A program made the translations under genes and the position numbers. The notes under the pieces are model-generated. The model saw only the letters and a program-made list of their open reading frames with translations. It was not told where the DNA came from and made no database searches. Source: a virus. Taken from it: a DNA stretch of 22,106 nt. The stretch spans positions 1-22,106 of IMG/VR virus record IMGVR_UViG_3300003937_000219; one strand, 5' to 3'. This document shows positions 3,876 to 21,916 of the stretch, in pieces (position 1 is the stretch's first letter; every line of letters starts with the position of its first letter).

Positions 3876-3901
3876 CAAACGGTAATGGAATATGTTATAA
3901 T
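3872..3901 (+). promoter_or_regulatory. Sigma-70-like promoter P2 of the sliding clamp gene
   Basis: TTGACA at 3872-3877 and TATAAT at 3896-3901 are perfect consensus hexamers with an 18-base spacer ending in TGT. The TGA stop of the methyltransferase-like gene (3873-3875) lies inside the -35 box. An AGGAG ribosome site at 3916-3920 precedes ATG 3929. Confidence 0.85.
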
Positions 3902-3928
3902 TAATGAAATCAATCAGGAGAACTAAAC

Positions 3929-4724: not shown

Positions 4725-4934
4725 ATGACTACACCCGTAAGACCAGACGTTGACGAAAAGAAACGTACACGCCTCATATATTTAAAGAAACAACACAGAG
4801 ACCTAGACAACGGTATAACTACTGCATACAATATGCGTACTGAAGACCTAGTAGTTTCTAAACTTAAGTTGAAGAAGTTGCATCTAAAAGAAGAAATTCT
4901 ACGGCTAGAAGAAGAGTTAGCAGGAAACTTGTGA
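4725..4934 (+). CDS. Small YdcH/DUF465-like coiled-coil protein
   Basis: This 69-residue, highly charged helical protein has the YdcH/DUF465 pattern: YLKKQHRDLDNGI in the first helix, a short linker, and then LVVSKLKLKKLHLKEEILRLEEEL, the L-K-x-x-K-L-x-L-K-x-E-I second helix typical of the family. The family is widespread in bacteria and found in marine T4-like phages, with no firm biochemical role. It starts at ATG 4725 with AGGAG at 4714-4718 and overlaps the apt gene at GTGA (4931-4934). A late-type promoter box lies just upstream. The two-helix hairpin is what I can see; function is unknown. Confidence 0.7.
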   Translation: MTTPVRPDVDEKKRTRLIYLKKQHRDLDNGITTAYNMRTEDLVVSKLKLKKLHLKEEILRLEEELAGNL

Positions 4935-5482
4935 CTATTATAAAACCTACACCAAAAACTATTCAAAATTTGATTAGAGTAATACCAGACCATCCTAGGC
5001 CTGGTGTTCTCTATCAGGATATGGCTAGTATATTTAATGCACCTCAAGGTCTTCAACATGTAATGACTTTGTTTTCAGACTATATTGAAGAAAACAATAT
5101 TCAATTTAACAAAATCATTGGGCTAGATGCTCGTGGTTTTCCTATGGCAGGTGCATTAAGTTCACAAACTGGTATACCATTTTCTATGGCTAGAAAGAAA
5201 GGTAAACTACCAGGTGAAACTATCTTTACACAATATGAACTAGAATATGGAACTGATGAATTACATCTACAGAAAGGTGCAATACAAAGAGGTGACAAAG
5301 TTCTGGTCATAGATGATGTTATTGCAACTGGTGGGACACTAGGTGCTGTGATTACATTAACTGATAGATTTGGTGCTGATATTAGTAGTATACTAAGTAT
5401 AATGGAACTAGAGTTTTTAGGTGGTGGTGCTAAGTTACGAGACGAAGGCTACGATGTATACTCTATACTCCAAGAACAATAA
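4931..5482 (+). CDS. apt: Adenine phosphoribosyltransferase
   Basis: This 183-residue enzyme would convert adenine and PRPP to AMP and pyrophosphate, a purine salvage step in the cytoplasm. Family hallmarks are the N-terminal IPDHPRPGVLYQDM (18-31) with the proline-glycine-aspartate segment of APRTs, IIGLDARGF (62-70) forming part of the substrate loop, the RKKGKLPGET loop (88-97), and the PRPP-binding VLVIDDVIATGGT (124-136). Length equals that of bacterial APRTs. GTG at 4931 is the likely start because it overlaps the previous gene's stop and the first residues align with the family N-terminus. It is cotranscribed with metK. Adenine arises from breakdown of SAM-derived nucleosides, so the pairing with metK is suggestive. 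Confidence 0.95.
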   Translation: MTIIKPTPKTIQNLIRVIPDHPRPGVLYQDMASIFNAPQGLQHVMTLFSDYIEENNIQFNKIIGLDARGFPMAGALSSQTGIPFSMARKKGKLPGETIFTQYELEYGTDELHLQKGAIQRGDKVLVIDDVIATGGTLGAVITLTDRFGADISSILSIMELEFLGGGAKLRDEGYDVYSILQEQ

Positions 5483-5497
5483 CATAAAAGGGTTTAA

Positions 5498-6580
5498 ATG
5501 AACAACTATATTTTTACAAGCGAAAGTGTAAGCGATGGACATCCAGATAAAGTTTCTGACCAGATTAGTGATGCATTAGTTGATGCAGGACTAAAGAATG
5601 GCGATGAAACTACTCGTGTTGCTATCGAAACACTTGTAACCACTAACCACGTAACGGTAGCGGGTGAAGTAAAGAACTTTAACGTAGATAATGTAAAAGA
5701 TATTATACGAGATAAAGTTAAAGAAATTGGCTATGAACAAGAAGGATTTCATTGGGATAATTTAAATATCTATAATGAAATACATTCACAATCAGGTGAT
5801 ATTGGATTAGGTACTGATGACTTTGGTGCAGGTGACCAAGGCATTATGTTTGGCTATGCAACTAATGAAAACGATGCAATGCTACCAGCACCAATTTACT
5901 ATTCACATGAAATTCTAAAGAAACTAAAAGAACTTAGATTAGATGGATATGATTTCTTACTTCCAGATGCTAAGTCTCAAGTAAGTATTCAGTATGTTGG
6001 TGGTCGTGTTCAACGAGCAGACCAAATTGTAGTAAGTACACAACATAAACAGGGCTTTATGCATAGTCTTAAAGCACCAGTGAAAGAAGCAGTCAATAGT
6101 GTAATGGGAGATTTAATAGATGACAATACTAAATGGCATATCAATCCTACAGGCAATTTTGTCATTGGTGGTCCTGATGGTGATACAGGACTCACCGGGC
6201 GTAAGATTATCGTTGATACTTATGGTGGCTATGCTCCCCATGGTGGTGGTGCTTTTAGTGGAAAAGACCCCACAAAAGTCGACCGAAGTGCCGCCTATAT
6301 GGCACGGTGGTTAGCAAAGAATGTTGTAGCAGACAATATGGCAGATTGGTGTCAAATTCAATTGTCATATGCTATTGGTGTAAAAGAACCAACAAGTATC
6401 TATATAGATAGTAATGGACACAACAGAACTATTCAAAAGTTTATCGAAGAAAACATTGACCTAACACCAAAGGGTATCATTGATAGATTTGATTTATTCA
6501 AGTTTTATGGTTATAGTGAAAACTGTATCTACGGACACTTTGGCAACAAAGATGTACCATGGGAAAAGATTGGATGGTAA
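5498..6580 (+). CDS. metK: S-adenosylmethionine synthetase
   Basis: This 360-residue enzyme makes S-adenosylmethionine from ATP and methionine. It shows the N-terminal ESVSDGHPDKVSDQISD (9-25) with the ATP-binding histidine and aspartates, the GAGDQGIMFGY loop (110-120), and the phosphate-binding GGGAFSGKDPTKVDRSAAY (249-267). It is somewhat shorter than the roughly 384-residue bacterial enzyme, but all three domain motifs are present and it reads through without breaks. A ribosome site (AAAGGG) precedes ATG 5498, fifteen bases after apt. Phage SAM synthesis could feed the methyltransferase-like protein at 3333 or other methylations. Some T4-like and larger phages take the opposite route and destroy SAM, which makes a complete synthetase notable. 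Confidence 0.96.
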   Translation: MNNYIFTSESVSDGHPDKVSDQISDALVDAGLKNGDETTRVAIETLVTTNHVTVAGEVKNFNVDNVKDIIRDKVKEIGYEQEGFHWDNLNIYNEIHSQSGDIGLGTDDFGAGDQGIMFGYATNENDAMLPAPIYYSHEILKKLKELRLDGYDFLLPDAKSQVSIQYVGGRVQRADQIVVSTQHKQGFMHSLKAPVKEAVNSVMGDLIDDNTKWHINPTGNFVIGGPDGDTGLTGRKIIVDTYGGYAPHGGGAFSGKDPTKVDRSAAYMARWLAKNVVADNMADWCQIQLSYAIGVKEPTSIYIDSNGHNRTIQKFIEENIDLTPKGIIDRFDLFKFYGYSENCIYGHFGNKDVPWEKIGW

Positions 6581-6601
6581 CAATTGAAAAGGAGAAATAT
6601 T

Positions 6602-7069
6602 ATGGCAAAGACACTTAATCCAAATTCATGGTTTGGCACGCCAGAAGAAAAAGAACGAGCGATTGCTAGGCGCATCACCGATGAAAAAGAACAAGCAATT
6701 GCACTAGAAGAAATCAATTTCAAGTATGGTCATACAGACCAACATACTTACGACAAGAACATGGCTACACATAAAGGTGAACAGTATGTTCGAGTTATTG
6801 GTATGGAATTAGACAAAGATAAACCAGGACAAGGTTTCTTTGAGTTAGATTTCAACGACCAATTCGTAGAATATCTTGCACAGAATGGCTATGAAGGTTT
6901 AGAACAAGAACAAATCGTTGATAATTGGTTCAATGATTTATGTAAGAACATTGTACTAAATGATTTAGAAGACGAAGAAGGCATTAGAAGAAGCGTAATG
7001 TCTGATAGCAAAGATGGACTAATCATTAGTAAAGTCAAAACTGACAAGGATACTTCAGAATATTATTAA
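6602..7069 (+). CDS. Conserved-looking phage protein of unknown function
   Basis: The product has 155 residues, starting MAKTLNPNSWFGTPEEK. I chose ATG 6602 over the upstream in-frame TTG 6584 because a strong AAAAGGAG (6587-6594) sits 7 bases before this ATG and would otherwise lie inside the coding sequence. The protein is acidic and soluble, with no signal peptide or membrane segment. The C-terminal half is helical and acidic (NDLEDEEGIRRSVMSDSKDG). I recognise no domain. It follows metK by 21 bases and is followed by promoter P3. Confidence 0.75.
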   Translation: MAKTLNPNSWFGTPEEKERAIARRITDEKEQAIALEEINFKYGHTDQHTYDKNMATHKGEQYVRVIGMELDKDKPGQGFFELDFNDQFVEYLAQNGYEGLEQEQIVDNWFNDLCKNIVLNDLEDEEGIRRSVMSDSKDGLIISKVKTDKDTSEYY

Positions 7070-7071
7070 AC

Positions 7072-7100
7072 TTGACCATTTTAACAAGTTGTGTTATAAT
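7072..7100 (+). promoter_or_regulatory. Sigma-70-like promoter P3 of the RNase H and accessory operon
   Basis: TTGACC at 7072-7077 and TATAAT at 7095-7100 have a 17-base spacer ending in GTGT. The upstream AAAC extends the shared -35 pattern. A GAGG ribosome site (7124-7127) precedes ATG 7133. It could drive the whole run to 11663, since no terminator is visible inside it. Confidence 0.8.
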
Positions 7101-7132
7101 AGTAGTAACTTTAATACAGTAGTGAGGAATAC

Positions 7133-8131
7133 ATGAGTACCTATATCTTAGTTGATTCGTTTAATATGTATCACAGAGCCAAACACGTAGCAATGCGTGG
7201 TGCTAATATTGATATGAAAATCGGTATGGCATACCACATTATGCTTAGTAGTGTAAAACTATGTTATAACAAATTCAATGCAGACCATGCCGTGTTCTGC
7301 CTAGAAGGTCGCAGTTGGCGTAAAGACTTCTATGAGCCATATAAGAAGAATAGAAAAGTTGCTCAAATGGCTAAGAGTGTTAGAGAGCAAGAAGAAGACC
7401 AAATCATGTTCGATGCCTATGCAGACATGGTAGAGTTTTTAGATACAAAAACTAATGTAACTATGTTACGAAATCCAGAAGCAGAAGCAGACGATATGAT
7501 TGCTTTGTTTATTGAGGCGCATCCAAATGATAATCATATTATCGTATCAAGCGATAGTGATTACTTTCAACTTATCACTGACAATGTAACTATGTATGAT
7601 GGTGTACAAAATCGTATCATTACTAAAGATGGTTTCTTTAAAGATGATAAGAATATGACCCCTATCAAAGAGAAGAAGACTGGTGAGATTAAAGAGAAAG
7701 TAGACCCGAAGTGGGCATTGTTTGAGAAATGTGTCCGTGGCGATACATCAGATAATATCTTTTCAGCATATCCTGGCTGTCGTAAGAAAGGTACCAAGAA
7801 CAAGATTGGTATGTTAGAAGCATTCGCAGATAAAGATGCTGGTGGTTTCAACTGGAATAACTTTATGTTACAACGCTGGACTGACCATAATGGTGAAGAA
7901 CATACTGTCCGTGAAGACTATGAACGCAATGTTAAACTAGTAGACTTAACGGCTCAACCACATGAACTTAAAGTAAAGTTTATTGAAACTATTGCAGAGA
8001 ATAGTATTCCTAAGACTAATGCTGGTGTTGGTATGAACTTCTTAAAGTTCTGTGGCATACATGATTTACAAAATCTTGCTAAGTCACCTGACGAACTTGC
8101 TAAAATACTTAACAATCCGTATCCGTCTTAA
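7133..8131 (+). CDS. rnh: RNase H / 5'-3' flap exonuclease (T4 rnh type)
   Basis: This 332-residue protein belongs to the 5'-3' exonuclease/FEN family that removes RNA primers in lagging-strand synthesis. Metal-binding acidic residues are visible: D8 in VDSFNMYHRA, the cluster NPEAEADDMIA (E116, E118, D120, D121) and SSDSDYFQL (D141, D143). The WRKDFYEPYKKNRK segment (62-74) matches the basic arch of the T4 enzyme, which has WRRDFAYYYKKNRG. A later aspartate-rich KCVRGDTSDNIF is the helix-hairpin-helix entry with the second metal site. It is slightly longer than T4 RNase H (305), with a lysine-rich insert near 180-195. Its stop shares a base with the next start (TAATG). Confidence 0.92.
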   Translation: MSTYILVDSFNMYHRAKHVAMRGANIDMKIGMAYHIMLSSVKLCYNKFNADHAVFCLEGRSWRKDFYEPYKKNRKVAQMAKSVREQEEDQIMFDAYADMVEFLDTKTNVTMLRNPEAEADDMIALFIEAHPNDNHIIVSSDSDYFQLITDNVTMYDGVQNRIITKDGFFKDDKNMTPIKEKKTGEIKEKVDPKWALFEKCVRGDTSDNIFSAYPGCRKKGTKNKIGMLEAFADKDAGGFNWNNFMLQRWTDHNGEEHTVREDYERNVKLVDLTAQPHELKVKFIETIAENSIPKTNAGVGMNFLKFCGIHDLQNLAKSPDELAKILNNPYPS

Positions 8132-8850
8132 TGCATTTTATATTTGACGTAGATGGTACTCTAACACCAAGTAGAGATAGAATAGATGAAGACTTTAGAC
8201 TATGGTTCTTAGAGTTCATCAAGTGGAATAATGTTTACTTAGTTACAGGAAGTGATAGAAGTAAAACAGAAGAACAAGTTGGTGAAGAAGTATTTGAAAA
8301 GGTAGAATGTGTATACAATTCTTCTGGCAATACCAAATATAAAAATGGTATATGCGTAATGAATTCAAAAAACTTAGAACTGCCACGTGATGCGTATGCT
8401 TTCTTATTAAAGAAATCTATTAGTAGTGATTTTGATATCGCCACAGGCAATCATTTTGAAGCAAGACCAGGACTATTAAACTTTAGTGTTGTTGGTAGAA
8501 ATGCTAACAGAGTACAACGAAAGAAGTATGTTAAGTTTGATACTACAACTAATGAAAGACAAAAGATTTCTGATGAATTTAACAAAAAGTTTACTGGTAA
8601 GTTTGGTCTAATATCACAGGTTGCAGGTGAAACAGGATTAGATATTATTGAGATGGGTAAAGACAAAGCACAAATATTAAAGGATTTTACATTCCAAGAT
8701 AAGTTGATATTCTTTGGTGACAACATACAATGGGGCGGCAACGATTATGGCATTGCACAAGCAATTGAATATGGTCCATATGCGTACAGTGAATGTCACA
8801 ATGTAAAGAATTGGAAAGAAACTTGGAAGATACTAAAAAGATTTAAATGA
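8131..8850 (+). CDS. Eukaryotic-type phosphomannomutase-like HAD phosphatase/mutase
   Basis: This 239-residue protein matches the eukaryotic phosphomannomutase (PMM1/PMM2) branch of the HAD superfamily, not the usual bacterial ManB family. It has FDVDGTLTPSRDRID (D6 and D8 as nucleophile and acid/base), VTGSDRSKTEEQ (GSD at 40-42), the cap signature R-x-G-x-L-N-x-S-x-x-G-R (R112 to R123), and C-terminal FFGDN and GGND (202-205). These are in PMM order and spacing. The family interconverts mannose-6- and mannose-1-phosphate, a step toward GDP-mannose; the phage substrate is not known. It is tightly coupled to RNase H upstream (TAATG) and to the next gene (ATGA). A general sugar phosphatase is the alternative. 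Confidence 0.82.
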   Translation: MHFIFDVDGTLTPSRDRIDEDFRLWFLEFIKWNNVYLVTGSDRSKTEEQVGEEVFEKVECVYNSSGNTKYKNGICVMNSKNLELPRDAYAFLLKKSISSDFDIATGNHFEARPGLLNFSVVGRNANRVQRKKYVKFDTTTNERQKISDEFNKKFTGKFGLISQVAGETGLDIIEMGKDKAQILKDFTFQDKLIFFGDNIQWGGNDYGIAQAIEYGPYAYSECHNVKNWKETWKILKRFK

Positions 8851-9380
8851 TATATACGAAAGAAATAGTTAAAGATAAGTTTTGGATTGTAGAGAATTCA
8901 GGAGTTAAAATAGGAACAATACGTTTCTGTTCGTCTGATGATTTTGAATTGAATTTGAGAGACGATGAACTATCAACTAACGAGCATATATCATTGTCTG
9001 AACTTACCTCACGTTTTGGTGAAAAGATACTAGAAGCAAAAGAAACTACTGTAAAGATTGTTGATGAAAACAAAGTAGGACCTCGTGGTGGATGGAATAC
9101 TTCACCAGCAGATATCGATGGCTATCCTTCTAAACATGTAGTATATAATACTGAAACAATTGAACTAAAAGACAAACAAATACCAACTTATACCAAAAGT
9201 GCGACAAGCAAAGTAAGATATGCCGCTGGATACTATGGAGTAAGATTTCCAAGTGACTGGCGATGGTTTTATGGCGGTAAACTAGAAACACTAAATACAT
9301 GTGATTTCATAGGACCTTTTAAAACGAAATCAGAAATGCAAACTGAAACATTATTGGCGAACAAACGAGATGGATTATAA
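8847..9380 (+). CDS. Unknown phage protein, aromatic C-terminal region
   Basis: The 177-residue product begins at ATG 8847, overlapping the previous stop as ATGA. The N-terminal 75 residues are acidic and strand-rich (KFWIVENSGVKIGTIRF). The C-terminal part is rich in glycine and aromatics (AAGYYGVRFPSDWRWFYGG), followed by CDFIGPFKTKSEMQTE. No signal peptide or membrane segment is evident. I cannot place it in a named family. Its position between the sugar-phosphate enzyme and the SGNH-like pair suggests it belongs to the same accessory operon. Confidence 0.75.
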   Translation: MIYTKEIVKDKFWIVENSGVKIGTIRFCSSDDFELNLRDDELSTNEHISLSELTSRFGEKILEAKETTVKIVDENKVGPRGGWNTSPADIDGYPSKHVVYNTETIELKDKQIPTYTKSATSKVRYAAGYYGVRFPSDWRWFYGGKLETLNTCDFIGPFKTKSEMQTETLLANKRDGL

Positions 9381-9561
9381 AAGTTTAAAAGATTTTCTAG
9401 CAACAATCAAACGTATAAATCTAAGAGGCGATAACAAGATAGTATTGCCAATGAAAGATGCAATAGATATTCAAAATGATATTGCTTTACTATTACTAGA
9501 ACTAAAAGATAAAGACTCAGGAACAACTAAAGTTTTTGATGGTGGAACCTTTGATAAATGA
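9370..9561 (+). CDS. Small unknown protein in the accessory operon
   Basis: A 63-residue frame starts at ATG 9370, overlapping the previous gene by 11 bases, and ends in an ATGA overlap with the first SGNH-like gene. It is helical in its middle (MKDAIDIQNDIALLLLELKDKD) with a glycine-containing tail. The double overlap is the best evidence that it is translated. No family is recognised. Confidence 0.65.
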   Translation: MDYKSLKDFLATIKRINLRGDNKIVLPMKDAIDIQNDIALLLLELKDKDSGTTKVFDGGTFDK

Positions 9562-10286
9562 TTGGTATATTTGGTGATAGTTTTAGTGATGAAATTGATA
9601 CTAGTATAGGTGGATATCTAGGAGGCTGGCCATCTGCTTTAGGTAAGTTGTATGATGAAGAAATAGAGAATTTTAGTGAATCATCTACATCTATTTCATA
9701 TAGTTATCAAAAATTCTGTGAGCAAGATTTAAGTAAATATTCAAAGGTTGTCTTTGTTGTTACCTATCCAACTAGACAACTTCTTATTAATAACGCAGAA
9801 CACAAATCAATACAGTTTCAAGGTGATGTAACTCGGTCGATTCAACATAACAAAGACTTTAATATAGACTTAACCTTATCAGACAAACGTGTATTAGAAT
9901 ACCAAGAAAACATAACTGCATTTTATCCTGACACATGGAACTTCGTTAAAAGAGCAGTAAAAGGTGATGTTTTACACTCGCATAAGAATGCTCTAGTATT
10001 GGACGTAGAATTACTAGGTACTATAACTACTTTAGGATTAAATACTCCTATGGCTCCTTGGTTTACAACACCAAAAGGTGAAGAATGGCATACTAAATAT
10101 ATAGAGACTGCCGAACTAGGAAGAGTGTGTCATTTTAGTACGCAACAAAATATAGAGTTAGCAGTTCTTATTAAAGATTACTTTGATAATGGGATTGATA
10201 TACATAATGAGATTAAATGGCACACAGATAAATATTTTACTATACCAGAATCAATGGAAGATGCTGGTCTTAAATTGAGAAGGTAG
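9558..10286 (+). CDS. SGNH/GDSL-like protein, first of a tandem pair
   Basis: The 242-residue product opens with MIGIFGDSFSDE, whose GDS block fits the nucleophile serine of SGNH/GDSL hydrolases, followed by a NFSESSTSISYSYQ segment and the hydrophobic strand KVVFVVTYPTRQL. A late histidine in CHFSTQQN could be the catalytic one. The usual aspartate three residues before that histidine is absent (GRVCH) and no G-x-N-D block III is visible, so hydrolase activity is uncertain. If active, it would cleave or transfer an ester, perhaps on a polysaccharide or lipid. It overlaps the upstream gene at ATGA and is four bases before its paralogue. Confidence 0.7.
   Translation: MIGIFGDSFSDEIDTSIGGYLGGWPSALGKLYDEEIENFSESSTSISYSYQKFCEQDLSKYSKVVFVVTYPTRQLLINNAEHKSIQFQGDVTRSIQHNKDFNIDLTLSDKRVLEYQENITAFYPDTWNFVKRAVKGDVLHSHKNALVLDVELLGTITTLGLNTPMAPWFTTPKGEEWHTKYIETAELGRVCHFSTQQNIELAVLIKDYFDNGIDIHNEIKWHTDKYFTIPESMEDAGLKLRR
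10170..10208 (+). repeat. Repeat copy A: 3' segment of the first SGNH-like gene
   Basis: Bases 10171-10208 match 10871-10908 at 36 of 38 positions by eye; the copies are exactly 700 bases apart. They encode KDYFDNG followed by I or F and DIHN in both genes. Confidence 0.85.
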
Positions 10287-10290
10287 TCAA

Positions 10291-10983
10291 ATGATTGGAA
10301 TATTTGGTGATAGTTTTGCATATGAAGGTCATGGCTCACATGTAAATGTAGGATGGCCCACATATCTTTCTGATTTATATAACGAAGAAAATCAGAACTT
10401 TTCAATCTCAGGTTCATCAATTCCTTACAGTTATCAATTACTTTGTGAGAAAGACTTAAGTATATACTCAAAAGTTATATTCATTGCTACAGAACCACGT
10501 AGACTCCACTTTGTAGATAAAAAAACTAATAAAGAAATGTTATGGAATGGTCGTGATGTACCTGGTTCAATAATATGTAATTCAGTCGATACTTATTCTT
10601 CATATGACACATCTTACGATGGAGTAGCCCTAAGATACCAAGAATACATAACGGCAATGTATCCTGATAGTTGGAAGTGGATGGCTAAAGCAATGAGAAA
10701 TGATGTTGTTCGTAAACACGAAAATTTATTATTATTAGATATATTCGAACTATCATTTATAAGTAACTTGGGCGCACCAGATAGGCCATGGCATATTGAT
10801 TGGACAGAAGACAATAATATTAGAAGTTGTCATATGACAAAATTACAGAATAGAGAACTTGCAGGATATATTAAAGATTACTTTGATAATGGATTTGATA
10901 TACATAATACATTAAAGTCTGATACTGTAAAAGAATACTATACTGAACCTTTGCACCATGAATCGGGATTTGTAAAAAAATGA
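10291..10983 (+). CDS. SGNH/GDSL-like protein, second of a tandem pair
   Basis: This 230-residue paralogue of the preceding gene starts MIGIFGDSFAYE and keeps the same order of elements: GDS block, NFSISGSSIPYSYQ, the strand KVIFIATEPRRL, and a late CHMTKLQNRELAG histidine. The shared C-terminal KDYFDNG-x-DIHN is almost identical even in DNA. As in its partner, the residue three before the late histidine is not aspartate (RSCH). A GAGAAGG ribosome site (10277-10283) lies before ATG 10291, and the stop overlaps the next gene as ATGA. Roles may have split between the copies, since the middle regions differ. Possible functions are acyl esterase or deacylase, or a binding protein with a GDSL fold. 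Confidence 0.7.
   Translation: MIGIFGDSFAYEGHGSHVNVGWPTYLSDLYNEENQNFSISGSSIPYSYQLLCEKDLSIYSKVIFIATEPRRLHFVDKKTNKEMLWNGRDVPGSIICNSVDTYSSYDTSYDGVALRYQEYITAMYPDSWKWMAKAMRNDVVRKHENLLLLDIFELSFISNLGAPDRPWHIDWTEDNNIRSCHMTKLQNRELAGYIKDYFDNGFDIHNTLKSDTVKEYYTEPLHHESGFVKK
10871..10908 (+). repeat. Repeat copy B: 3' segment of the second SGNH-like gene
   Basis: This is the second copy of the 38-base near-identical segment that begins at 10171. The two differ at two adjacent positions. It supports tandem duplication or continuing gene conversion. Confidence 0.85.
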
Positions 10984-11663
10984 TTGATACAAAAACATGG
11001 GTATTTGGTACTACATCAGAATTAAGTAAAAAGATTATAAGCAATGTAGAAGAGCCTATTCTATTTGGTAGACATAATGTAGATTACAGTGACCCAGATA
11101 AATTCATAAAAGAACATGTAGTTGATGATAACCCAATTGAAATGATTGTTAATATTAATCTTCCACATATGTCAGGTTTTGTACCTTTAACTAACATCAA
11201 CGAATTTAATAATCTTTTTGTAGAACAGAATAGTAATATATTCTTCTTTTACAAACTACTTACTGCTACTGCTGATATGAAGAAACCAGTGAAGGTTTGC
11301 TTTATAACAAGTACTTTTCCTAATACATCTTGTGTGAAAATGAAGAAAGACGTATCATCACAAGACCACATAGAAAGTGTTATTGGGTTTCAAAATTATT
11401 TTACTTATGCTAGTACTAGAGCCATTCAACAGTTTGCATTCTTTTCTAGGACCAATGAATATACAAAGTCTATAGGTGTTAGTCCGTCAGGTATAAATGA
11501 GAGTAACATAGACGAATACGCAAGAAGAATAACAAATATAGTTAAAGAAGACCGAGTAGATAAACAATGGGGTTGTGTATACGATTTAAGTAGACCAGAA
11601 GGTTGGTCAGAAACATGGCCAGATGCTGATATATGTAACGGTTTTTGGTTTTTCTATAACTAA
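10980..11663 (+). CDS. Degenerate short-chain dehydrogenase/reductase-like protein
   Basis: The 227-residue product has the outline of an SDR fold: an N-terminal strand and turn WVFGTTSELSKKI (7-19) in place of the nucleotide-binding TGxxxGxG, a D-rich second strand region, EMIVNINLPHMSG resembling the NNAG strand, VCFITST (106-112) with the catalytic-serine strand, FTYASTRAIQQF (141-152) in place of Y-x-x-x-K, and a GVSPSGINES segment like the PG-x-I/V-x-T turn. The lysine of Y-x-x-x-K is arginine (R147), so classic redox activity may be altered or lost. It overlaps the second SGNH-like gene at ATGA and ends the accessory operon. The fold call is inferred from motif order. Confidence 0.5.
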   Translation: MIDTKTWVFGTTSELSKKIISNVEEPILFGRHNVDYSDPDKFIKEHVVDDNPIEMIVNINLPHMSGFVPLTNINEFNNLFVEQNSNIFFFYKLLTATADMKKPVKVCFITSTFPNTSCVKMKKDVSSQDHIESVIGFQNYFTYASTRAIQQFAFFSRTNEYTKSIGVSPSGINESNIDEYARRITNIVKEDRVDKQWGCVYDLSRPEGWSETWPDADICNGFWFFYN

Positions 11664-11699
11664 AATAACCATTATATACGTATGTTATAGGGGAAATTA

Positions 11700-11707
11700 G
11701 ATAAATA
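11700..11707 (+). promoter_or_regulatory. Possible T4 late-type promoter box upstream of 11736
   Basis: GATAAATA at 11700-11707 differs from the T4 late consensus only at the first base. A start a few bases on would leave a short leader with GAGG (11724-11727) before ATG 11736. No TTGACA-like -35 is found here. The evidence is a single octamer in AT-rich DNA. Confidence 0.35.
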
Positions 11708-11735
11708 AGAGTATAATCAATACGAGGATACTCAT

Positions 11736-12023
11736 ATGGCTAGACCTAAACCAACGATAATCTTAGAGCATACAGATAATCAAACATATCGCAGTGAGCA
11801 AGTACTTAAAGCAACCGCTGTTTACTCCGTCTTTTATAAGGGGGTAGCCATTAACTTACGTAGCCTAAATTCATTGGTTAATTTTCCTGGTCCAAAATAC
11901 AAGAAAGTATCATTCAGTAATCCTGGACACGCAATCAACTTAGCACAACGATTAAATAAATTGTTTAGATGTGATGATTTCGAGGTATACATACTTACCA
12001 AGGGTGACAAACTAGAGTTGTAA
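11736..12023 (+). CDS. Small conserved-looking phage protein, basic
   Basis: The 95-residue product starts MARPKPTIILEHTDN and includes FPGPKYKKVSFSNPGHAINLA, a pattern I associate with small proteins of unknown function in marine T4-like phages. It is basic and soluble, ending with a strand region EVYILTKGDKLEL. It has a GAGG ribosome site and a possible late promoter box, and it is followed two bases later by the next gene. Its function is unknown; a nucleic acid-binding role is conceivable given the charge, but no motif proves it. Confidence 0.75.
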   Translation: MARPKPTIILEHTDNQTYRSEQVLKATAVYSVFYKGVAINLRSLNSLVNFPGPKYKKVSFSNPGHAINLAQRLNKLFRCDDFEVYILTKGDKLEL

Positions 12024-12801: not shown

Positions 12802-13926
12802 ATGAAAGTATCAACAAACGATTTAGATGTGAGAGTAGTTCGTCCTAGTGATGTACGTGCCGAGATTAATTACGCTATGAACCGAAAGCGTCCGGTATTC
12901 ATATGGGGACCTCCTGGTGTTGGTAAATCAGAAATTGTAGATAGCATTACCCAAGAACGTTCTGGGTTTATGATTGACCTTCGTCTCGCTCTTATGGAGC
13001 CCACAGATTTACGAGGTATTCCATACTTCAATGAGAAGAATGGTACTATGGAATGGGCCACACCTTCAGATTTGCCTAGCCAAGAACTTGCTGACCAATA
13101 TGAAAGTGTTGTTCTTTTCTTAGATGAAATGAACCAAGCACCACAATCAGTTCAAGCCGCGGCTTATCAGTTAATTCTAAACCGTCGTTTAGGTTCTTAT
13201 GTGCTACCAGATAACGTGTTAATCGTTGCGGCTGGTAACCGTGAAAGTGACCGAGGTGTTGCATATCGTATGCCTTCACCACTTGCTAACCGTTTTGTTC
13301 ACCTTGAAATGGGTGTTGACTTCGAAGATTGGCAGACTTGGGCATTAGAGAACAAAATCAGTGCCGATGTGGTTGGTTTCTTAACGTCTAACAAGATGGA
13401 CTTATTCAACTTTGACCCACGTCAGGCGAGCCGTGCCTTTGCTACTCCTCGTTCTTGGACTTTTGTTTCTGAAATGTTACCACAAGAAGGTGAAGAAATT
13501 TCACAAAGTCGTTTACATGACTTGATTGCTGGTACAGTTGGTGATGGTGTTGCTACTAAGTTTATGGCTCACAGAGCCTTGTCAAGTAAGTTGCCTGTTC
13601 CTTCTGATATCTTAGATGGTACAGTTACAACTCTTTCATCAGAAGCACGTGAGATTTCAGCGATGTTCTCGTTGACAACTTCACTATGTTACGAGTTGAA
13701 AGACTTTGTAGACCGTAATGGTAAAGACAAAATGGATGAGTTATATAGCATGGCTAATAACTTCTTTAAGTTTATGATGGAAAACTTTGATACTGAAATG
13801 ACAGTATTAGGTGGTCGTACTGCTCTTAAAGTTTACAAACTTCCATTAGAGCCTCGTAAAGTGCCTTGTATTGAAGATTTCTTCAAAAAGCATGGTAAAC
13901 TTATCATCGAGGCCCATAACGCCTAA
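12802..13926 (+). CDS. MoxR-type AAA+ ATPase
   Basis: This 374-residue protein is an AAA+ ATPase of the MoxR type, which work as chaperone-like remodelers with VWA-domain partners. Walker A is GPPGVGKSE (36-44), Walker B VVLFLDEMNQ (103-112), and sensor 1 lies in IVAAGNRESDRG. The conserved LMEPTDLRGIPYF segment and the APQSVQAAAYQLILNRR helix also match the family. The C-terminal 150 residues are helical and ATPase-lid-like. The likely partner is the VWA protein at 20597, 6.7 kb downstream, which is under a related promoter. MoxR/VWA pairs are common in tailed-phage genomes, but their viral role is not settled. Confidence 0.92.
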   Translation: MKVSTNDLDVRVVRPSDVRAEINYAMNRKRPVFIWGPPGVGKSEIVDSITQERSGFMIDLRLALMEPTDLRGIPYFNEKNGTMEWATPSDLPSQELADQYESVVLFLDEMNQAPQSVQAAAYQLILNRRLGSYVLPDNVLIVAAGNRESDRGVAYRMPSPLANRFVHLEMGVDFEDWQTWALENKISADVVGFLTSNKMDLFNFDPRQASRAFATPRSWTFVSEMLPQEGEEISQSRLHDLIAGTVGDGVATKFMAHRALSSKLPVPSDILDGTVTTLSSEAREISAMFSLTTSLCYELKDFVDRNGKDKMDELYSMANNFFKFMMENFDTEMTVLGGRTALKVYKLPLEPRKVPCIEDFFKKHGKLIIEAHNA

Positions 13927-14036: not shown

Positions 14037-14065
14037 TTGACTTTCCTTGATTTTTATGGTATACT
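14037..14065 (+). promoter_or_regulatory. Sigma-70-like promoter P6, probably giving a leaderless message
   Basis: TTGACT at 14037-14042 and TATACT at 14060-14065 are 17 bases apart. The expected start falls on or next to ATG 14072, and no ribosome site lies between. It would drive the ligase, halogenase, acyltransferase-like and ketosynthase genes. Confidence 0.7.
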
Positions 14066-14071
14066 GGTGTA

Positions 14072-15457
14072 ATGATATTTGAAACTATAAAAAACCAATC
14101 ACAATTACATCGGCATAAAACCGCAGTAATTTGTGGTGACAAAAAATATACCTACACTGAACTTATTGAGAGTGTAGAAAAACTGGCTGCCGTTATGTCT
14201 ACTGCATTTCTTCCAGGTGACAGATTATTATTTGCTAGTGGTAAAGAATATCATTATATTAGAATGGTATTAGCATGTGACATTCTCGGTGTAACATTCA
14301 TGCCTACATTTCCAAATCTGCCAAAAGATGTAGTAGATGGAATAGTAGAAGCAAGTTCACCAGACCATATTATACTAACTGAGGCTGATGCTTTAGCCTT
14401 AGAACCACATAACAAAGCACTGATATATTCTAAGAAAACCGACCATACATACACAGTATTATTCACAAGTGGTACAACCGGTAAACCTAAAGCAGTTGCA
14501 CATACGAGTGCAGGATGTTTGATGGCATGTTTCAATAGTATTAGTGTGTATCAAATGAGTTCAAATGATGTAATACTATCTCAATTACCACCATCAACCG
14601 TAGGAGGTTTGTATCTATACGCACTTCCAGGACTAATTAAAGGTTGTACAGTTGTAATCGAACAGTTCAATCCTAGACGATTTGTAAAGTTATGTGAAGA
14701 ATATAAACCAACAATAGGCATAATTGTTCCAGCAATGATACTTGCTATGCAGAATTTAAAGACATGGAATGAATTAGATATGTCTCATTGGAGAGAACTA
14801 AGTGTTGGTAGTACAATTATACCAGAAGAAATGTTAGACATTCTATTCAGTAAAGGTGTCCCTGCCATCAGAGATTTATATGGGTGTACGGAAACTCAAG
14901 TTCCAGCATTCACATTCTTAATTGAACCAGATACTGAACACAAATTACAACTTGAATGCAATGACCAATATGAATACAAATTAGATAGACATGACCAGTT
15001 ATGGTTAAAAAGTCCTCTACTAATGAGCAACTATCTGAATGCAGATGCAGAACTAGACAGTGATGGTTTTTGGTGTACAGGTGATGTATTTGAACGCAAG
15101 TATAATAAACTATTTTACAAGTCTCGCAGAAAAGATTTAATGAAAATCAACAGTCATAATGTATCACCAATTGGTATAGAAAATGCTATATTAGTATTAG
15201 ACGGTGTTGATGAAGTATGTGTAATATCTAAAGAACGAGGTTTAGGTGAAAAATATATCGTAGCAATTATAAGTAGTCAGGACCCACAGATAAATAAATC
15301 GTTAGTGATGAATTCTATAGAAAGTAAACTCATGCCATATGAACTTCCTAAAGATATAATCGTTACTAAAGAAACTCTGCCTAGAAATCAGATGGGCAAA
15401 ATACAGAGACATGTTATACAAGGCATCTACGGAGAAGTCAATGAAGACCAAAGTTAA
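14072..15457 (+). CDS. Adenylate-forming (ANL superfamily) acyl ligase
   Basis: This 461-residue enzyme would activate a carboxylic acid with ATP to an acyl-adenylate, probably passing it to a thiol such as CoA or a carrier. Motifs run in family order: LFTSGTTGKPK (130-140) for ATP, YGCTE (270-274), TGD (336-338), SRRKD-L-MK (351-358), and PRNQMGKIQR with catalytic K443. The chain is short for an acyl-CoA synthetase (usually 500 or more), but both N- and C-terminal domains are present. In the hinge motif the usual glycine-rich segment reads KINSHNVSP, which may affect thioester formation. ATG 14072 has no ribosome site and sits at the predicted transcript start. The substrate is unknown; the operon's halogenase and ketosynthase suggest a fatty or aromatic acid. 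Confidence 0.92.
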   Translation: MIFETIKNQSQLHRHKTAVICGDKKYTYTELIESVEKLAAVMSTAFLPGDRLLFASGKEYHYIRMVLACDILGVTFMPTFPNLPKDVVDGIVEASSPDHIILTEADALALEPHNKALIYSKKTDHTYTVLFTSGTTGKPKAVAHTSAGCLMACFNSISVYQMSSNDVILSQLPPSTVGGLYLYALPGLIKGCTVVIEQFNPRRFVKLCEEYKPTIGIIVPAMILAMQNLKTWNELDMSHWRELSVGSTIIPEEMLDILFSKGVPAIRDLYGCTETQVPAFTFLIEPDTEHKLQLECNDQYEYKLDRHDQLWLKSPLLMSNYLNADAELDSDGFWCTGDVFERKYNKLFYKSRRKDLMKINSHNVSPIGIENAILVLDGVDEVCVISKERGLGEKYIVAIISSQDPQINKSLVMNSIESKLMPYELPKDIIVTKETLPRNQMGKIQRHVIQGIYGEVNEDQS

Positions 15458-17129
15458 AAAGATAGTTGTTGTCGGCGGTGGTGTAGGCGGTTGGCTATCT
15501 GCATCTTGGCTAAAAACAAAACATCCAGAACTAGACATAACCCTTATTGAAAGTGATAAAGTAGGAACTATTGGTATTGGTGAAAGTGTCTTACCTCGCC
15601 TAGGAACTATGTTAAGTGATATAGGGCTAGAAGAACGAGAGTGGATGTCTTATACACATTCAATATACAAACTTGGTAATAAATTTATTGGCTGGAATAT
15701 TCCAGGTAAAAGAGACCATGTTACTAATCACTGGTGGCCTTCTAAGTTTGATGAATCATATTATGGATTTTCTTATGCCTTACCAGAAGAACACTTAGCA
15801 TCAAGTTATTATAATCAATTAAAGACTACCGATTTGTTTTACAACTCTAAAGGTAAAGAAGGTGTTAATGATAAATGGAATGATTATTGGCTTCAATTAG
15901 CACGTGATGGTAGAAAAAACTTATGGGAGATTGCACAAGATACACAAGAGGCAACTTACTTGATGGACTACTGTAAGTCTCCTTATGACATGAATGACAA
16001 TCTGATGTTAGGTTCATGGGAAAGTCTAACATATCATATCGATGCAAATAGATTTCCGAAACTAATTAAAGATAGAGTTGCGATACCAAAAGGTGTTAAG
16101 CACATACATGGACATATATCTGAGATTAAAAAAGATGCCGACGGATACATATCATCTGTCGTAACAGACGCAGGCGAAGAATACAGTGGTGATTTATTTT
16201 TAGATTGCACAGGCTTTCATAGAGTTCTTACAAAAGAAATGGATGTCGAATGGAAACCTTATAATGAAATTACTACGGACAATTTAATCTTTGCACCAAT
16301 AAAATACAATGACCCAGTAAAAGAAATGCGTCCATATACTATGAGCAATGCAATGGATGAAGGTTGGTTGTTTATCATTTCATTATATAATAGAATGGGT
16401 TCAGGTTATATATTTGATGCTAGTGAGATATCTCCAGAAGATGCAATGAAGAAGTATAAAAAGTATTGGGAAGGTCACGAGTTTATAAGAGAACCTAGAC
16501 ATATAAAATGGGATGCTGGTAAATACGATACGCAATGGAATAACAATGTAGTATCAATCGGAATGACTGGTGGAATGATTGAACCTATGGAAGCAAACGT
16601 GTTAGCACTAGCACAGGCTGGTATGAAAATGGTTGAACGAATTATTTCACGTGCAGATGAAAATGATGAAGTGATTGGCAAAGCATCAATCAAGGCATAT
16701 AATAGTAACCTAAATTGGCTGTTCGATAACATAACAAAATTTGTAGACTATCACTATACTTTAAGTGACAGAACTGACACACCTTTCTGGGCTAAAAAAC
16801 ACCAAAGAGGCATTGATGAAAATCATAAAGAAGAAATATGGAAGCAGTATAGAAATCCTAGATGCACACCAGAATCAGGTGTACCAGATTATATGTGGGC
16901 ACAAGTAGCCGTTTCTATGGACAAGTTTGATGATGATGTTGAACTTCATGTTCGTCCAGACTTATTAGAGAAAGCAAACGAATCATTTGAATGGTTAAGA
17001 AAATCTAGTAAACGAAATGGAATATATGCACCAAACGCCTATGAATGGAATAAGAAAATGTTATTCGGTGATAGAACTCATAGTGAAGTACTAGAAGAAA
17101 GTTTAAAACCACAAGATGAAGATAGTTAA
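15441..17129 (+). CDS. FAD-dependent halogenase (tryptophan halogenase family)
   Basis: This 562-residue flavoenzyme resembles tryptophan 7-halogenase PrnA: GGGVGG (12-17) binds FAD, IGIGESVLP (44-52) matches the IGVGEATIP segment, and YKLGNKF puts K77 at the position of catalytic K79 of PrnA. Near 374-384, GMTGGMIEPMEA aligns with the LEPLES region (E381). The halogenase signature W-x-W-x-I-P reads W-L-F-I-I-S (309-314), though the following NRMGSGYIF matches. Marine cyanophage enzyme VirX1, a viral flavin halogenase that iodinates varied substrates, is the closest precedent I know. ATG 15441 with GGAGAAG just before it (15431-15437) is preferred over upstream TTG 15411. It overlaps the ligase by 17 bases and needs reduced flavin from the host or elsewhere. 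Confidence 0.9.
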   Translation: MKTKVKKIVVVGGGVGGWLSASWLKTKHPELDITLIESDKVGTIGIGESVLPRLGTMLSDIGLEEREWMSYTHSIYKLGNKFIGWNIPGKRDHVTNHWWPSKFDESYYGFSYALPEEHLASSYYNQLKTTDLFYNSKGKEGVNDKWNDYWLQLARDGRKNLWEIAQDTQEATYLMDYCKSPYDMNDNLMLGSWESLTYHIDANRFPKLIKDRVAIPKGVKHIHGHISEIKKDADGYISSVVTDAGEEYSGDLFLDCTGFHRVLTKEMDVEWKPYNEITTDNLIFAPIKYNDPVKEMRPYTMSNAMDEGWLFIISLYNRMGSGYIFDASEISPEDAMKKYKKYWEGHEFIREPRHIKWDAGKYDTQWNNNVVSIGMTGGMIEPMEANVLALAQAGMKMVERIISRADENDEVIGKASIKAYNSNLNWLFDNITKFVDYHYTLSDRTDTPFWAKKHQRGIDENHKEEIWKQYRNPRCTPESGVPDYMWAQVAVSMDKFDDDVELHVRPDLLEKANESFEWLRKSSKRNGIYAPNAYEWNKKMLFGDRTHSEVLEESLKPQDEDS

Positions 17130-17727
17130 AACATTTATAGGTAAGAATAGTTTTGAATTTAATCTTGTAGAATATGACCCAAGTCTACAGAGTGATTTAG
17201 AAGATTTCTGTAAGCGATGTGACCGAGAAGGTTACACCAATAACGCAAGTTTTAAAGCATTGAAACTTGGCAAATGGGGTAACTTAGAAAAGTGGTGGCT
17301 TGTTTATCATAAAGATAAGATTATCAGCATGAGTGGTGCCCATTATTTTCCACACTTACATTCTAACTGTTTTATTATATTAAGTAGAATGGCTACAATG
17401 AAGGCATATAATGGAATGGCATCGCCTTCTGTGTCGGCTAGAAAGATGCAACACAACTTTGCATTTGGAGTTTTTATGCCAGTTCAAATAGATTGGTGTT
17501 TAGAAATGGGTGCTACAGATATTATAGGAACTACCAACTCACCAAAAAACGACACAGATAGAAGTGGCACAATGTTTAAAGTCCACGAATATGCTGACAA
17601 GTTTTTTAAGATAGGTGACAAAGCAACTAGAATACATAAAGACTTTCCAAGTTACAATACACTACAAGATATTTGGAGATTTAATGTAAGAGACTTTGCG
17701 ACAATGGAAAAGATAAAATACAAATGA
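17116..17727 (+). CDS. GNAT-like acyltransferase-like protein (tentative)
   Basis: The 203-residue product starts at ATG 17116, overlapping the halogenase by 14 bases, and ends in an ATGA overlap with the ketosynthase. Its strand-helix pattern fits an N-acyltransferase fold: a first half EKWWLVYHKDKIISMSGAHYF like the beta-2 to beta-4 sheet with the typical DKII turn, then SRMATMKAYNG where GNAT proteins place their cofactor strand, followed by ASPSVSARKMQHNF-type helix and IDWCLEMGATDIIGTTN. The canonical R/Q-x-x-G-x-A pyrophosphate loop is not clear. If it is an acyltransferase, it could move an acyl group from the ligase/ketosynthase thioester to an amine. The fold assignment is inference. 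Confidence 0.45.
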   Translation: MKIVKTFIGKNSFEFNLVEYDPSLQSDLEDFCKRCDREGYTNNASFKALKLGKWGNLEKWWLVYHKDKIISMSGAHYFPHLHSNCFIILSRMATMKAYNGMASPSVSARKMQHNFAFGVFMPVQIDWCLEMGATDIIGTTNSPKNDTDRSGTMFKVHEYADKFFKIGDKATRIHKDFPSYNTLQDIWRFNVRDFATMEKIKYK

Positions 17728-18875
17728 CAGTATATATTAACGCAATTAGTGGTCTAACTCCTTTTGGTGACCTAGAAGACACATGGAAGGCAATAACAAA
17801 TGATGAAGTTTGTTACGGTCCTCTTACTAAATTTTCACATGATAAGAGCATCAGGTCTAAGGTTTCAGGTGAGGTTAAGTTTAATGCTGAAAACCATCCT
17901 ATCATAACTGAAAGAGAACAAGATAAAATGCCATCGTATATGCAATGGGCATTATCATCAGCAGATAAATTATTACACAAACAAGATTTAGAAAAAGACA
18001 GAACTGGTGTTCTTGTATCAACTGCCCTTAGTATGTATAACGAACCTCTACGAGCAAGTGAAAATAAGAATGTCAACACTTATACATTCACCCCAAATCT
18101 TATATCAAACAATATCAATATTAAATATGGTTTTACAGGACCAAGTACAATGTTGTCTAGTGCGTGTTCTACAGGACTGTACAGTATCATTATGGGTTGT
18201 ATGATGATTGAAACAGGACAAGCCGATAACATAATTGCTGGTGCATTTGATGATTCGATTTATAAGGATGCATATAAACAGTTCGGTAAACTAAGAGCAT
18301 TGTCAACAAAGTACAATGAAACTCCTGAAATAGCAAGTCGTCCATGGGATAAAGATAGAGACGGACTAGTTCTCAGTGAGGGTGGTGCATTATTTTTATT
18401 ATCAAAAACTAAGACAAAAGATACAATAGCAGAGATATCTGGATATGCAATGAATAACGATGCATTCCAGGCTGTTGCTCCGCATCCAGATGGGACTATG
18501 ATAGAAAAATGTATGAAAGATGCACTGTTTTATCGCACACCAGACTTAATCAATGCACATGCAACATCTACCCCTAAGGGCGATTATATTGAGGTGGATG
18601 CAATCAATAGATTAGGACTAGAAGATGTATGGGTAACAGCAAATAAGTCGCAAATTGGTCACTTAATGGGGGCTGCCGGTGCCATAGAGACTGCTTTAAG
18701 CGTACTTTCACTAGAAAATGACATTATTACTCCATCTTTAAACATAAATGAACTAGAAGATGGTTATAATATAAAATATACACCAACTACCATATCACAT
18801 AAAGTTAATTCAGTACTGTGTAATAGTTTTGGATTTGGTGGGACAAATGCATGTATTTTGTTATCAAAAACTTGA
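17724..18875 (+). CDS. Beta-ketoacyl synthase (FabF/FabB type)
   Basis: This 383-residue thiolase-fold enzyme condenses acyl thioesters, normally on acyl carrier protein, with loss of CO2. All catalytic residues are present in order: nucleophile C148 in SSACSTG, H279 in NAHATSTPKGD, K308 in ANKSQIGHLMGAAGA and H313 in the same segment, and the C-terminal NSFGFGGTNA glycine-rich turn. Length is a little under the roughly 410 residues of FabF, mainly shorter loops. It begins in an ATGA overlap and its TGA stop lies within the -35 of P7. No acyl carrier protein or ketoreductase is adjacent; only the degenerate SDR-like protein at 10980 hints at one. It might use host carrier protein to make or divert an acyl chain. 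Confidence 0.94.
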   Translation: MTVYINAISGLTPFGDLEDTWKAITNDEVCYGPLTKFSHDKSIRSKVSGEVKFNAENHPIITEREQDKMPSYMQWALSSADKLLHKQDLEKDRTGVLVSTALSMYNEPLRASENKNVNTYTFTPNLISNNINIKYGFTGPSTMLSSACSTGLYSIIMGCMMIETGQADNIIAGAFDDSIYKDAYKQFGKLRALSTKYNETPEIASRPWDKDRDGLVLSEGGALFLLSKTKTKDTIAEISGYAMNNDAFQAVAPHPDGTMIEKCMKDALFYRTPDLINAHATSTPKGDYIEVDAINRLGLEDVWVTANKSQIGHLMGAAGAIETALSVLSLENDIITPSLNINELEDGYNIKYTPTTISHKVNSVLCNSFGFGGTNACILLSKT

Positions 18876-18899
18876 CAAGATTGCAAAATGTGTTATACT
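18872..18899 (+). promoter_or_regulatory. Sigma-70-like promoter P7
   Basis: TTGACA at 18872-18877 contains the ketosynthase stop TGA (18873-18875); TATACT is at 18894-18899 after a 16-base spacer ending in TGT. It drives the gene at 18931. Confidence 0.85.
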
Positions 18900-20596: not shown

Positions 20597-21916
20597 ATGG
20601 GTCAACCACAAAAACAAGTAGCCACAGAAAGCGAATTAGATAGTGCATTAGATGATGTTCTAGCCGCTAATGGTATTGAAGTAGATGATACTCTACCAGA
20701 ACCTGTAGTATTTGATTATACTGACGAAAAAGTCAAAGAAATGATTGTGAGTAGTCGTGTTCGCCTTCTTATTCGTCACCCATTTTTCGGTACACTTGCT
20801 ACTCGATTGAAATTAGTTGAGGCAGAATGGTGTCCTACAGCCGCTACTGACGGCAGACATTTTTATTACAACTGTGATTTCTTCCGAACTATGACATCAG
20901 AAGAAATTGATTTCGTTGTTGGTCACGAAGTTCTTCACTGTGTATATGAACACTGTGGTGAGTATGGTCGTTTGATGGACATGGAAGAAAATTCACGTGA
21001 CATGAAACTTTGGAATATTGCGGCTGACTATAAAGTCAATCAAGCCCTAGTCGAATCACGTGTTGGTGTTATGCCAAAGATGGCATTACATGACCGAAAG
21101 TATTACAGGAGTTACACCGAAGAGATTTATGAACACCTTAAAGAAACTGGCGAGGGTGATGATAAAGAAACATTAGACCAGCACATGTTTGGTGACGGTA
21201 ACGGTGACGGCAAGAATGACCCAACTGGTCGTGGTGCTCCTATCAAAGTTTCTAAGCAAGAAGCCCAAGCGATTAAAGACCAGATGAAACAGGCTGTAAT
21301 ACAAGCGGCACAATCAACTGATGCCGGTACTCTTCCTGGTGATGTTAAAAGAATTATAAATGGCATGACTAATCCTAAAATGGATTGGCGTGAACTTCTT
21401 AACATTTCAATTCAAAGTCTTTTGAAAAGTGATTTCACATTTATGAGACAATCTCGTAAATCACAATCAATGGGTGTTTATCTTCCTGGTTCAAAAAATG
21501 AAGAAAAGATTGATGTTGCAATCGCACTTGATGTTTCTGGTTCTATTTCATCTACTATGATTGAAGAGTTTCTTGGTGAAATGTCTGGCATTATGCAACA
21601 GTTCCAAGACTTCAAAATTCGTGTTTGGACTTTTGATACCGAAGTAAATGGCGAGGGTTATAAAGAGTTTGACCCGTACAATGCCGATGAACTTAAAGAG
21701 TACGAGATTATCGGTGGCGGTGGTACTGACTTTGATATCAACTATCAGTTTATGAAAGATAATGATATTGAGCCTGATAAGTTTATTATGTTTACTGATG
21801 GCTTACCTTGGGATAGTTGGGGTGACGAAAGTTATTGTGATAGTTTGTTTATCATTCACGGTTCTGAAAGCATTGTCCCACCTTTCGGTGAACATGCATA
21901 CTATAGCGAGGGATGA
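20597..21916 (+). CDS. VWA-domain protein with metallopeptidase-like N-terminal domain (DUF2201 type), MoxR partner
   Basis: This 439-residue protein combines two parts. The N-terminal part has HEVLH (110-114), an HExxH zinc motif, with a conserved WNIAADYKVNQ helix after it, as in putative metallopeptidases of the DUF2201 kind. The C-terminal part is a VWA domain with the metal-ion site D-x-S-G-S (D312, S314, S316), a later GGGGTDF threonine and FTDGLPWD. An acidic linker with a glycine-rich DGNGDGKND run separates them. VWA proteins of this kind work with MoxR ATPases; the ATPase here is at 12802. The start ATG 20597 has AAGAGGA upstream and promoter P9. Whether the HEVLH site cleaves peptide bonds is unknown. 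Confidence 0.88.
   Translation: MGQPQKQVATESELDSALDDVLAANGIEVDDTLPEPVVFDYTDEKVKEMIVSSRVRLLIRHPFFGTLATRLKLVEAEWCPTAATDGRHFYYNCDFFRTMTSEEIDFVVGHEVLHCVYEHCGEYGRLMDMEENSRDMKLWNIAADYKVNQALVESRVGVMPKMALHDRKYYRSYTEEIYEHLKETGEGDDKETLDQHMFGDGNGDGKNDPTGRGAPIKVSKQEAQAIKDQMKQAVIQAAQSTDAGTLPGDVKRIINGMTNPKMDWRELLNISIQSLLKSDFTFMRQSRKSQSMGVYLPGSKNEEKIDVAIALDVSGSISSTMIEEFLGEMSGIMQQFQDFKIRVWTFDTEVNGEGYKEFDPYNADELKEYEIIGGGGTDFDINYQFMKDNDIEPDKFIMFTDGLPWDSWGDESYCDSLFIIHGSESIVPPFGEHAYYSEG

Follow-up and report, generated by a model that had tools for sequence, protein, structure and literature searches.

The β-ketoacyl synthase-like gene of this viral DNA would, in our preferred reading, encode the enzyme that extends the chain in a small acyl pathway, owned by the phage, dependent on a carrier protein, and acquired and lost as one unit. 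We give this reading a probability of about 0.58. The stretch analysed (the window) comprises 22,106 nucleotides and is IMG/VR record IMGVR_UViG_3300003937_000219. Its ketosynthase (KS) gene closes a tight cassette, in which genes for an AMP-forming ligase (LIG), a halogenase-like enzyme (HAL) and a GNAT-fold protein (GNAT) lie directly upstream, overlapping and on the same strand (Table 1). An earlier, sequence-only reading had described a complete ketosynthase with no carrier protein or reductase beside it, and made no mention of the cassette. It was correct in fact and half correct in interpretation: KS is complete, it belongs to a cassette, and its carrier lies elsewhere in the phage genome.

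Table 1. Genes of the window that make up or flank the ketosynthase cassette.
Feature	Position	Strand	Description
MoxR-type AAA ATPase, left landmark	12802..13926	+	in relatives with and without KS; outside the pathway
LIG, AMP-forming acyl/aryl ligase	14072..15457	+	first cassette gene; 461 aa; PF00501 E 3e-42, PF13193 E 3e-6
HAL, flavin-dependent halogenase-like enzyme	15411..17129	+	PF04820 E 4e-83
GNAT-fold protein, putative acyltransferase	17116..17727	+	203 aa; no Pfam match in window copy
KS, FabF-like beta-ketoacyl synthase	17724..18875	+	383 aa, ATG start; feature under study
vWA/peptidase-like protein (phrog_1314), right landmark	20597..21916	+	

KS matches two Pfam domains of its superfamily well above the gathering score of 20.8 that applies to each (PF00109, E 1e-32, 114.1 bits; PF02801, E 1e-23, 83.7 bits). 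Its catalytic Cys, His, Lys and His are C148, H279, K308 and H313, and these positions align throughout the tree set (22 of 22), which combines 10 phage KS with a small set of 12 references. Domain scores and active-site residues together assign it, by sequence criteria, to the condensing type of the beta-ketoacyl synthase superfamily, and confirm the completeness claimed earlier on the basis of these same four residues. The closest PDB relative is 4jga (FabF-type, 3-oxoacyl-ACP synthase 2; profile match, E 4e-70), and the SFGFGG loop is present, as in FabF/FabB-type synthases. Two FabF models score KS at 270 bits (TIGR03150, 270.3) and 271 bits (PRK07314); the former value lies below the curated equivalog cut-off of 493.75 bits. 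The NCBIfam model for the cispentacin acyltransferase subunit AmcF, by name a KS-fold acyltransferase, also matches, at 117 bits, and on that account KS might not condense or extend chains at all but act as an acyltransferase or loading partner. We regard this as very unlikely, since the FabF models score it far better than AmcF and the full Cys-His-Lys-His set is kept in 10 of 10 phage KS.

A tree with FabF, FabB and polyketide ketosynthases places the phage KS from 10 loci in a single clade of their own (support 100/100). The stem of this clade measures 1.45 substitutions per site, and the clade lies outside the FabF, FabB, KasA/B and type II PKS references, a small set of 12. Among the annotated phage and plasmid matches listed for KS in two annotated collections, identity reaches at most 37.4%; in one KS search the phage matches were mostly unannotated or bacterial-looking records, which served solely as outside references. 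Between the window and five relatives, dN/dS is 0.10-0.17 for KS, 0.07-0.12 for LIG, 0.07-0.22 for HAL and 0.08-0.31 for GNAT, and among three relatives it is 0.12-0.18 for the acyl carrier protein (ACP) described below (Nei-Gojobori; most pairs approach saturation at synonymous sites, and three gave no value). The range of 0.07-0.31 over the five genes therefore points to purifying selection on all parts. A recent host fabF copy under no selection, an origin that the sequence-only reading had raised, is ruled out by the tree with its long stem, the low identity of the annotated matches listed and the dN/dS of KS. The DNA polymerase is nearest (48%) to that of the 490-kb Agrobacterium phage Atu_ph07, from which we infer that these viruses are large T4-like phages; their hosts are perhaps marine alphaproteobacteria.

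Of the upstream genes, LIG carries the P-loop TSGTTGKPK along with WCTGD and PRNQMGK; its profile matches are to general acyl-CoA ligase models only, and the best NCBIfam names, fatty-acyl-CoA and o-succinylbenzoate ligases, all score far below cut-off. HAL, whose conserved start is probably at 15441 (562 aa), scores 280.3 against a cut-off of 21 bits for PF04820 and finds tryptophan 5-halogenase 8fov (E 6.5e-62) and VirX1 (E 4.8e-61) as PDB profile matches. The motifs GGGxxGW, GNKFxGW (with the active-site lysine) and EPMExN are kept in 8 of 8 HAL homologues. In all eight, however, the WxWxIP motif reads WxFxI, its second Trp being Phe, and a pattern search found the Trp4 motif YY...G[NS]YY in none. 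The Trp4 motif marks group A tryptophan halogenases (PMC8269204, in excerpt), and WxWxIP or its variants are missing from some true halogenases (PMC8407142, in excerpt). On both motif differences HAL is not a tryptophan halogenase proper; it is best described as a putative, halogenase-like enzyme, which might even oxygenate. Two genome-collection scans for a bacterial source (88 and 111 pattern matches) yielded no relative of HAL, which shows little, the patterns being narrow.

A sequence search of the PDB gave no match for the GNAT protein at E 5. An AlphaFold2 model built from 13 aligned relatives (mean pLDDT 89) is predicted to have the GNAT fold: the PDB matches listed are filled by GNAT structures (best match VIA, Z 11.7 over 150 residues, rmsd 3.2 to 2oh1). 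They are general GNAT proteins, and FeeM/LuxI enzymes are not among them, which excludes nothing.

The order LIG-HAL-GNAT-KS recurs in 11 of 11 viral-contig loci of the first KS scan, between moxR-type and vWA-type genes. Alignment-based scans added L022, with the same order, and the cut locus L023, whose contig stops inside KS; LIG fragments were also found at contig ends. More distant relatives carry LIG-HAL-DES1-GNAT-DES2-KS (L029, L131-L134 and G030, where L131 is part of record G033 and L133 part of record G029) or LIG-HAL-DES-GNAT-KS (L135 and G024). DES2 of L029 matches the desaturase family PF00487 (52 bits against a cut-off of 29.7). DES1 has no Pfam match; it matches DES2 at E 2e-14 and its histidine boxes H54xxxxH59, H91xxHH95 and H208xxHH212 are invariant in 4 of 4 sequences, with a structure model at pLDDT 50. 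By PF00487 or the three histidine boxes, both are classed as putative membrane fatty acid desaturases. They belong to relatives only, and neither whole record of the window's own lineage, G001 or G008, contains a match to the desaturase-like genes. A promoter scan of the window returned 32 sites against 30.6 expected, a chance level at which the extended -10-like sites before LIG (14037-14065) and after KS (18872-18899) are no evidence; the T4-type late promoter TATAAATA occurs once, at 4687, below chance.

Relatives without KS (KS−, as opposed to KS+) show what becomes of the site. In G027 and G028 the vWA gene directly follows moxR, leaving an empty cassette site, and in G026 the site holds one 210-aa gene only, GNAT-like by eye. 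In four KS−/HAL− loci (L039, L040, L042 and L043; 4/4) a LIG remnant of 341-357 aa persists, with its C-terminal domain lost and its P-loop broken (TNGSTLES, TNESTLES, TNRSTPEP or TSDFTDEL), whereas LIG in 12 of 12 KS+ loci checked is 454-463 aa long with an intact P-loop, TSGTxGxP. Catalytic LIG is therefore found where KS and HAL are. Counting against our preferred reading are the serine that replaces the P-loop lysine in 5 of the 12 KS+ LIGs and the GNAT-like genes that occur at the site without KS in L039, L040 and L042 (26-28% identity) and, by eye, in G026. So do the LIG scores below cut-off, the WxFxI of HAL and the lack of desaturase-like genes in the window's lineage.

Other genes occupy the site in some KS− loci. 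A 227-aa mini AMP-binding protein (L039:11832-12515, PF00501 E 1e-15; L042:11829-12512) adjoins a GNAT-like gene and a 93-aa gene, and in L043 a 255-aa protein that by eye resembles 2OG-Fe(II) hydroxylases (10971-11738; 36% homologue in G031, 71973-72638) replaces HAL-GNAT-KS.

The window record contains no PF00550 carrier domain, no PF00698 malonyl transferase and no PF13561 short-chain reductase, in agreement with the sequence-only reading, which had seen neither a carrier protein nor a malonyl transferase in the window. The further suggestion of that reading, a carrier encoded at some other place in the phage genome, is supported. G001 and G003 match the window at 99.93% identity over 14,383 nt, and in G001 (99.9 kb) an ACP gene lies at 28883-29113, 32 kb upstream of the KS gene (60896-62044). 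In the window's virus population and near relatives the distance is 32-35 kb. PF00550 is over cut-off in G001, G004, G008 and G012, where the gene lies between iscA and a porin-like gene, next to hscB, and the motif ADSIDS is invariant in 4 of 4 aligned sequences. Its domain match and DS[IL] serine assign the distant gene, from sequence, as a type II ACP. The first set of 12 records includes three with PF00550, and the second, of 11, includes one; judged by record ends and positions, the other KS+ records of those sets stop before the expected place of the ACP, and for G015, G039 and G040 the early end was judged from distances in relatives (40 to 53 kb).

To compare presence and absence, we counted only records that contain the moxR and hscB/iscA landmarks together (the latter seen as the iscA neighbour in G033 and G038), with further long contigs taken from an hscB scan and an AcpS scan. 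KS, HAL and ACP are all present in nine (G001, G004, G008, G012, G024, G029, G030, G033 and G038) and all absent in five (G018, G020, G026, G027 and G028), with no discordant record among the 14. Outside the count stand G025 (ACP present, no moxR), G023 (neither ACP nor moxR) and the contigs that carry AcpS (G031, G032 and G034-G037), among which a moxR match occurs in G037 alone (54%). In G018 and G020, searched end to end by tblastn, KS, HAL, ACP, AcpS and DES were not found, two control loci being positive for KS/HAL. Fisher's exact test gives 0.0005 if the records are independent, which they are not. On the moxR+vWA tree of the 14 records, the trait pair needs at least 4 changes, 3 of them forced by well-supported branches; taken by itself, KS requires 6 changes, 5 of them forced, across 23 records on the landmark tree. 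Within these genomes, the predicted ACP is thus present or absent jointly with KS, HAL and intact LIG.

The position of the ACP, adjoining hscB-iscA and not the cassette, counts against our preferred reading. Links of ACP to iron-sulfur cluster assembly are known in general, and hscB and iscA are direct ACP neighbours in the KS+ records read; the ACP might then serve that assembly, its match with KS reflecting coincidence or the shared gain of two unrelated islands. We consider this improbable. In KS− G018 and G020 the hscB-iscA-porin segment is retained at 62-95% identity and the ACP alone is gone, and G026, G027 and G028 keep hscB without PF00550, so that all five KS− records covering both loci lack a PF00550 match. 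At L018:8514-9386 an hscB-like and an iscA-like gene (by eye) are adjacent, hscB being 92-95% conserved, and the pair is kept with and without ACP.

Further carrier-type matches were noted in KS+ relatives. One lies about 27-30 kb downstream of KS in three KS+ records (G033:115041-115202, G038:3582-3743, G040:67218-67382); the five KS− records mentioned above have no PF00550 match. Another, in the KS+ 342-kb record G033 (L125, G033:238000-252000; spans 6062-7084, 7099-7260 and 9485-10117), is a further ACP beside a 340-aa protein that has a homologue in L029, encoded by the extra 332-aa gene of the cassette there (16309-17307); a third desaturase-like gene and, by eye, oxygenase-like genes are in the vicinity. 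The L125 genes might form a second linked island.

A carrier must be armed, and a holo-ACP synthase (AcpS) gene is present in two long KS+ records, at 9197-9574 of G008 and at 316 kb of the 342-kb G033; none was found in G026, which is KS− and also 342 kb long. The comparison is two against one, because most KS+ contigs end short of the AcpS region. A gene resembling ferredoxin/flavodoxin-NADP reductases by eye lies 3-7 kb from AcpS (L020:13449-14192, G031:102929-103699, G033:322614-323378); its product could supply HAL or the desaturase-like enzymes with electrons or reduced flavin.

The protein at 10980-11663 had been read as reductase-like with its catalytic lysine lost. By eye it does resemble a short-chain dehydrogenase/reductase (SDR) and has YASTR in place of YxxxK, which upholds the second part of that description; for the first there is no SDR match in Pfam. 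Its homologues are patchy among KS+ loci, with none in L006, L008-L012 or L029, so it is not a conserved partner, and the missing match and patchy presence together rule it out as the pathway reductase. Elsewhere in the window are a tandem GDSL-like pair (9558-10286 and 10291-10983; 44% identical, in some relatives only), phosphoribosyltransferase-like and MetK-like proteins by eye (4931-5482 and 5498-6580) and a phosphomannomutase/HAD-like protein (8131-8850; PF03332 E 1e-24).

Neither a PF00698 malonyl transferase (0 of 12 records) nor a FabG-like PF13561 SDR (0 of 19) was found in the phages, and this too counts against our preferred reading. Parts of the host fatty acid synthesis machinery are therefore needed in any case, and the host probably supplies malonyl-ACP and, if needed, ketoreduction. 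This dependence is also what favours a different role, in which KS loads from host AcpP and skews the chain length or flux of host fatty acids, LIG and HAL doing something else. The FabF models are the closest to KS, and Roseobacter prophages carry acpP, fabF and fabG (PMC8224337, in excerpt). We nonetheless think such a valve unlikely: the phage ACP comes and goes with KS, in every locus read KS shares its cassette with LIG and HAL, and it scores below the FabF equivalog cut-off. The sequence-only reading had proposed that KS may use the carrier of the host in this way, as a valve on its lipid synthesis; the proposal finds no support of its own and, given a phage ACP, is not needed.

Under the preferred reading of a phage-owned pathway, parts, order, catalytic motifs, purifying selection and the joint occurrence of ACP with KS, HAL and intact LIG are read from the sequences, and from them we infer the reactions, substrate, product and use to the phage. 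A 4'-phosphopantetheinyl transferase of the host or phage (AcpS, in two long KS+ records) would arm the phage ACP. LIG would adenylate a carboxylic acid, for which a fatty or short acyl acid is the likeliest candidate, and pass it to the ACP (or to CoA). KS would then condense the acyl group with host-made malonyl-ACP, possibly followed by a host ketoreductase, and HAL would halogenate or oxidise the bound or free product, on which the membrane desaturase-like enzymes of relatives would act too. Finally, the GNAT-fold protein would transfer the acyl group to an amine.

A more specific version can be offered tentatively, as a possibility towards which we do not lean. In it, this large marine phage lineage has a natural-product-like pathway, comprising the ligase, a dedicated ACP with AcpS, KS, the halogenase-like and desaturase-like enzymes and the GNAT acyltransferase, whose parts lie at least 30 kb apart and are gained and lost as one. 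Within infected cells it would make a halogenated or oxidised acyl amide, unsaturated in some lineages, which might act as a signal, block competitors or be a modified membrane lipid.

Comparison with known systems brings out likeness of individual parts. KS shares with FabF/FabB-type synthases (4jga) both Pfam domains, the four catalytic residues and the SFGFGG loop, but forms its own clade on a long stem, reaches about half the equivalog cut-off and lies outside a fab operon. HAL resembles VirX1 of cyanophage Syn10 (PDB 6qgm; characterised in PMC8407142, in excerpt) in being phage-borne and in having PF04820, the active-site lysine region and EPMExN; its identity to the phage records listed is 22-31%, and two Syn10 ORFs keep WxWx[IV]P, unlike the WxFxI of the HAL group. 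In Syn10 (L140) two halogenase-like ORFs are adjacent (1443-2966 and 2956-4548), one of them annotated as hypothetical. Of the halogenase neighbours shown in Syn10, HTVC008M and S-B64, none is annotated as a ligase, KS or ACP. The Roseobacter prophage sets likewise join a phage-associated carrier to a KS, though in the order fabG-acpP-fabF (PMC8224337, in excerpt); here KS is with LIG and HAL, the ACP is 30 or more kb away and fabG was not found. Ligase, discrete ACP, KS and, in relatives, desaturase-like genes recall the ligase-ACP-desaturase pathways of the jamaicamide type (PMC11837247, in excerpt), which are located in cyanobacterial PKS/NRPS clusters; the window's lineage has no desaturase-like gene in cis. 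N-acyl amino acid synthases use acyl-ACP (PMC8762209, in excerpt). Both of these last comparisons suggest, by analogy, a likeness of parts and not membership.

Single phage metabolic genes, namely halogenases, desaturases, acpP and fabF, are already known. Viral desaturases have been proposed (PMC7300359, in excerpt), and viral metabolic genes from a depth of 1,000 m include fabF, fabG and fabZ (PMC10653327, in excerpt). By title and abstract, the open-licence PMC papers listed gave such single-gene precedents and no description of a cassette of this kind. Within phage auxiliary metabolism, the new element is the distant, co-inherited carrier.

To our knowledge, the natural substrates of phage flavin-dependent halogenases are an open question, and the cassette is a likely partner set for these enzymes. 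Its five or six proteins form a testable minimal system. As a distant ACP is gained and lost with KS, these phages may operate their own small-molecule pathway in the host cell. If the split pathway is real, phages can own carrier-based acyl biosynthesis, and not only tune the pathways of their hosts.
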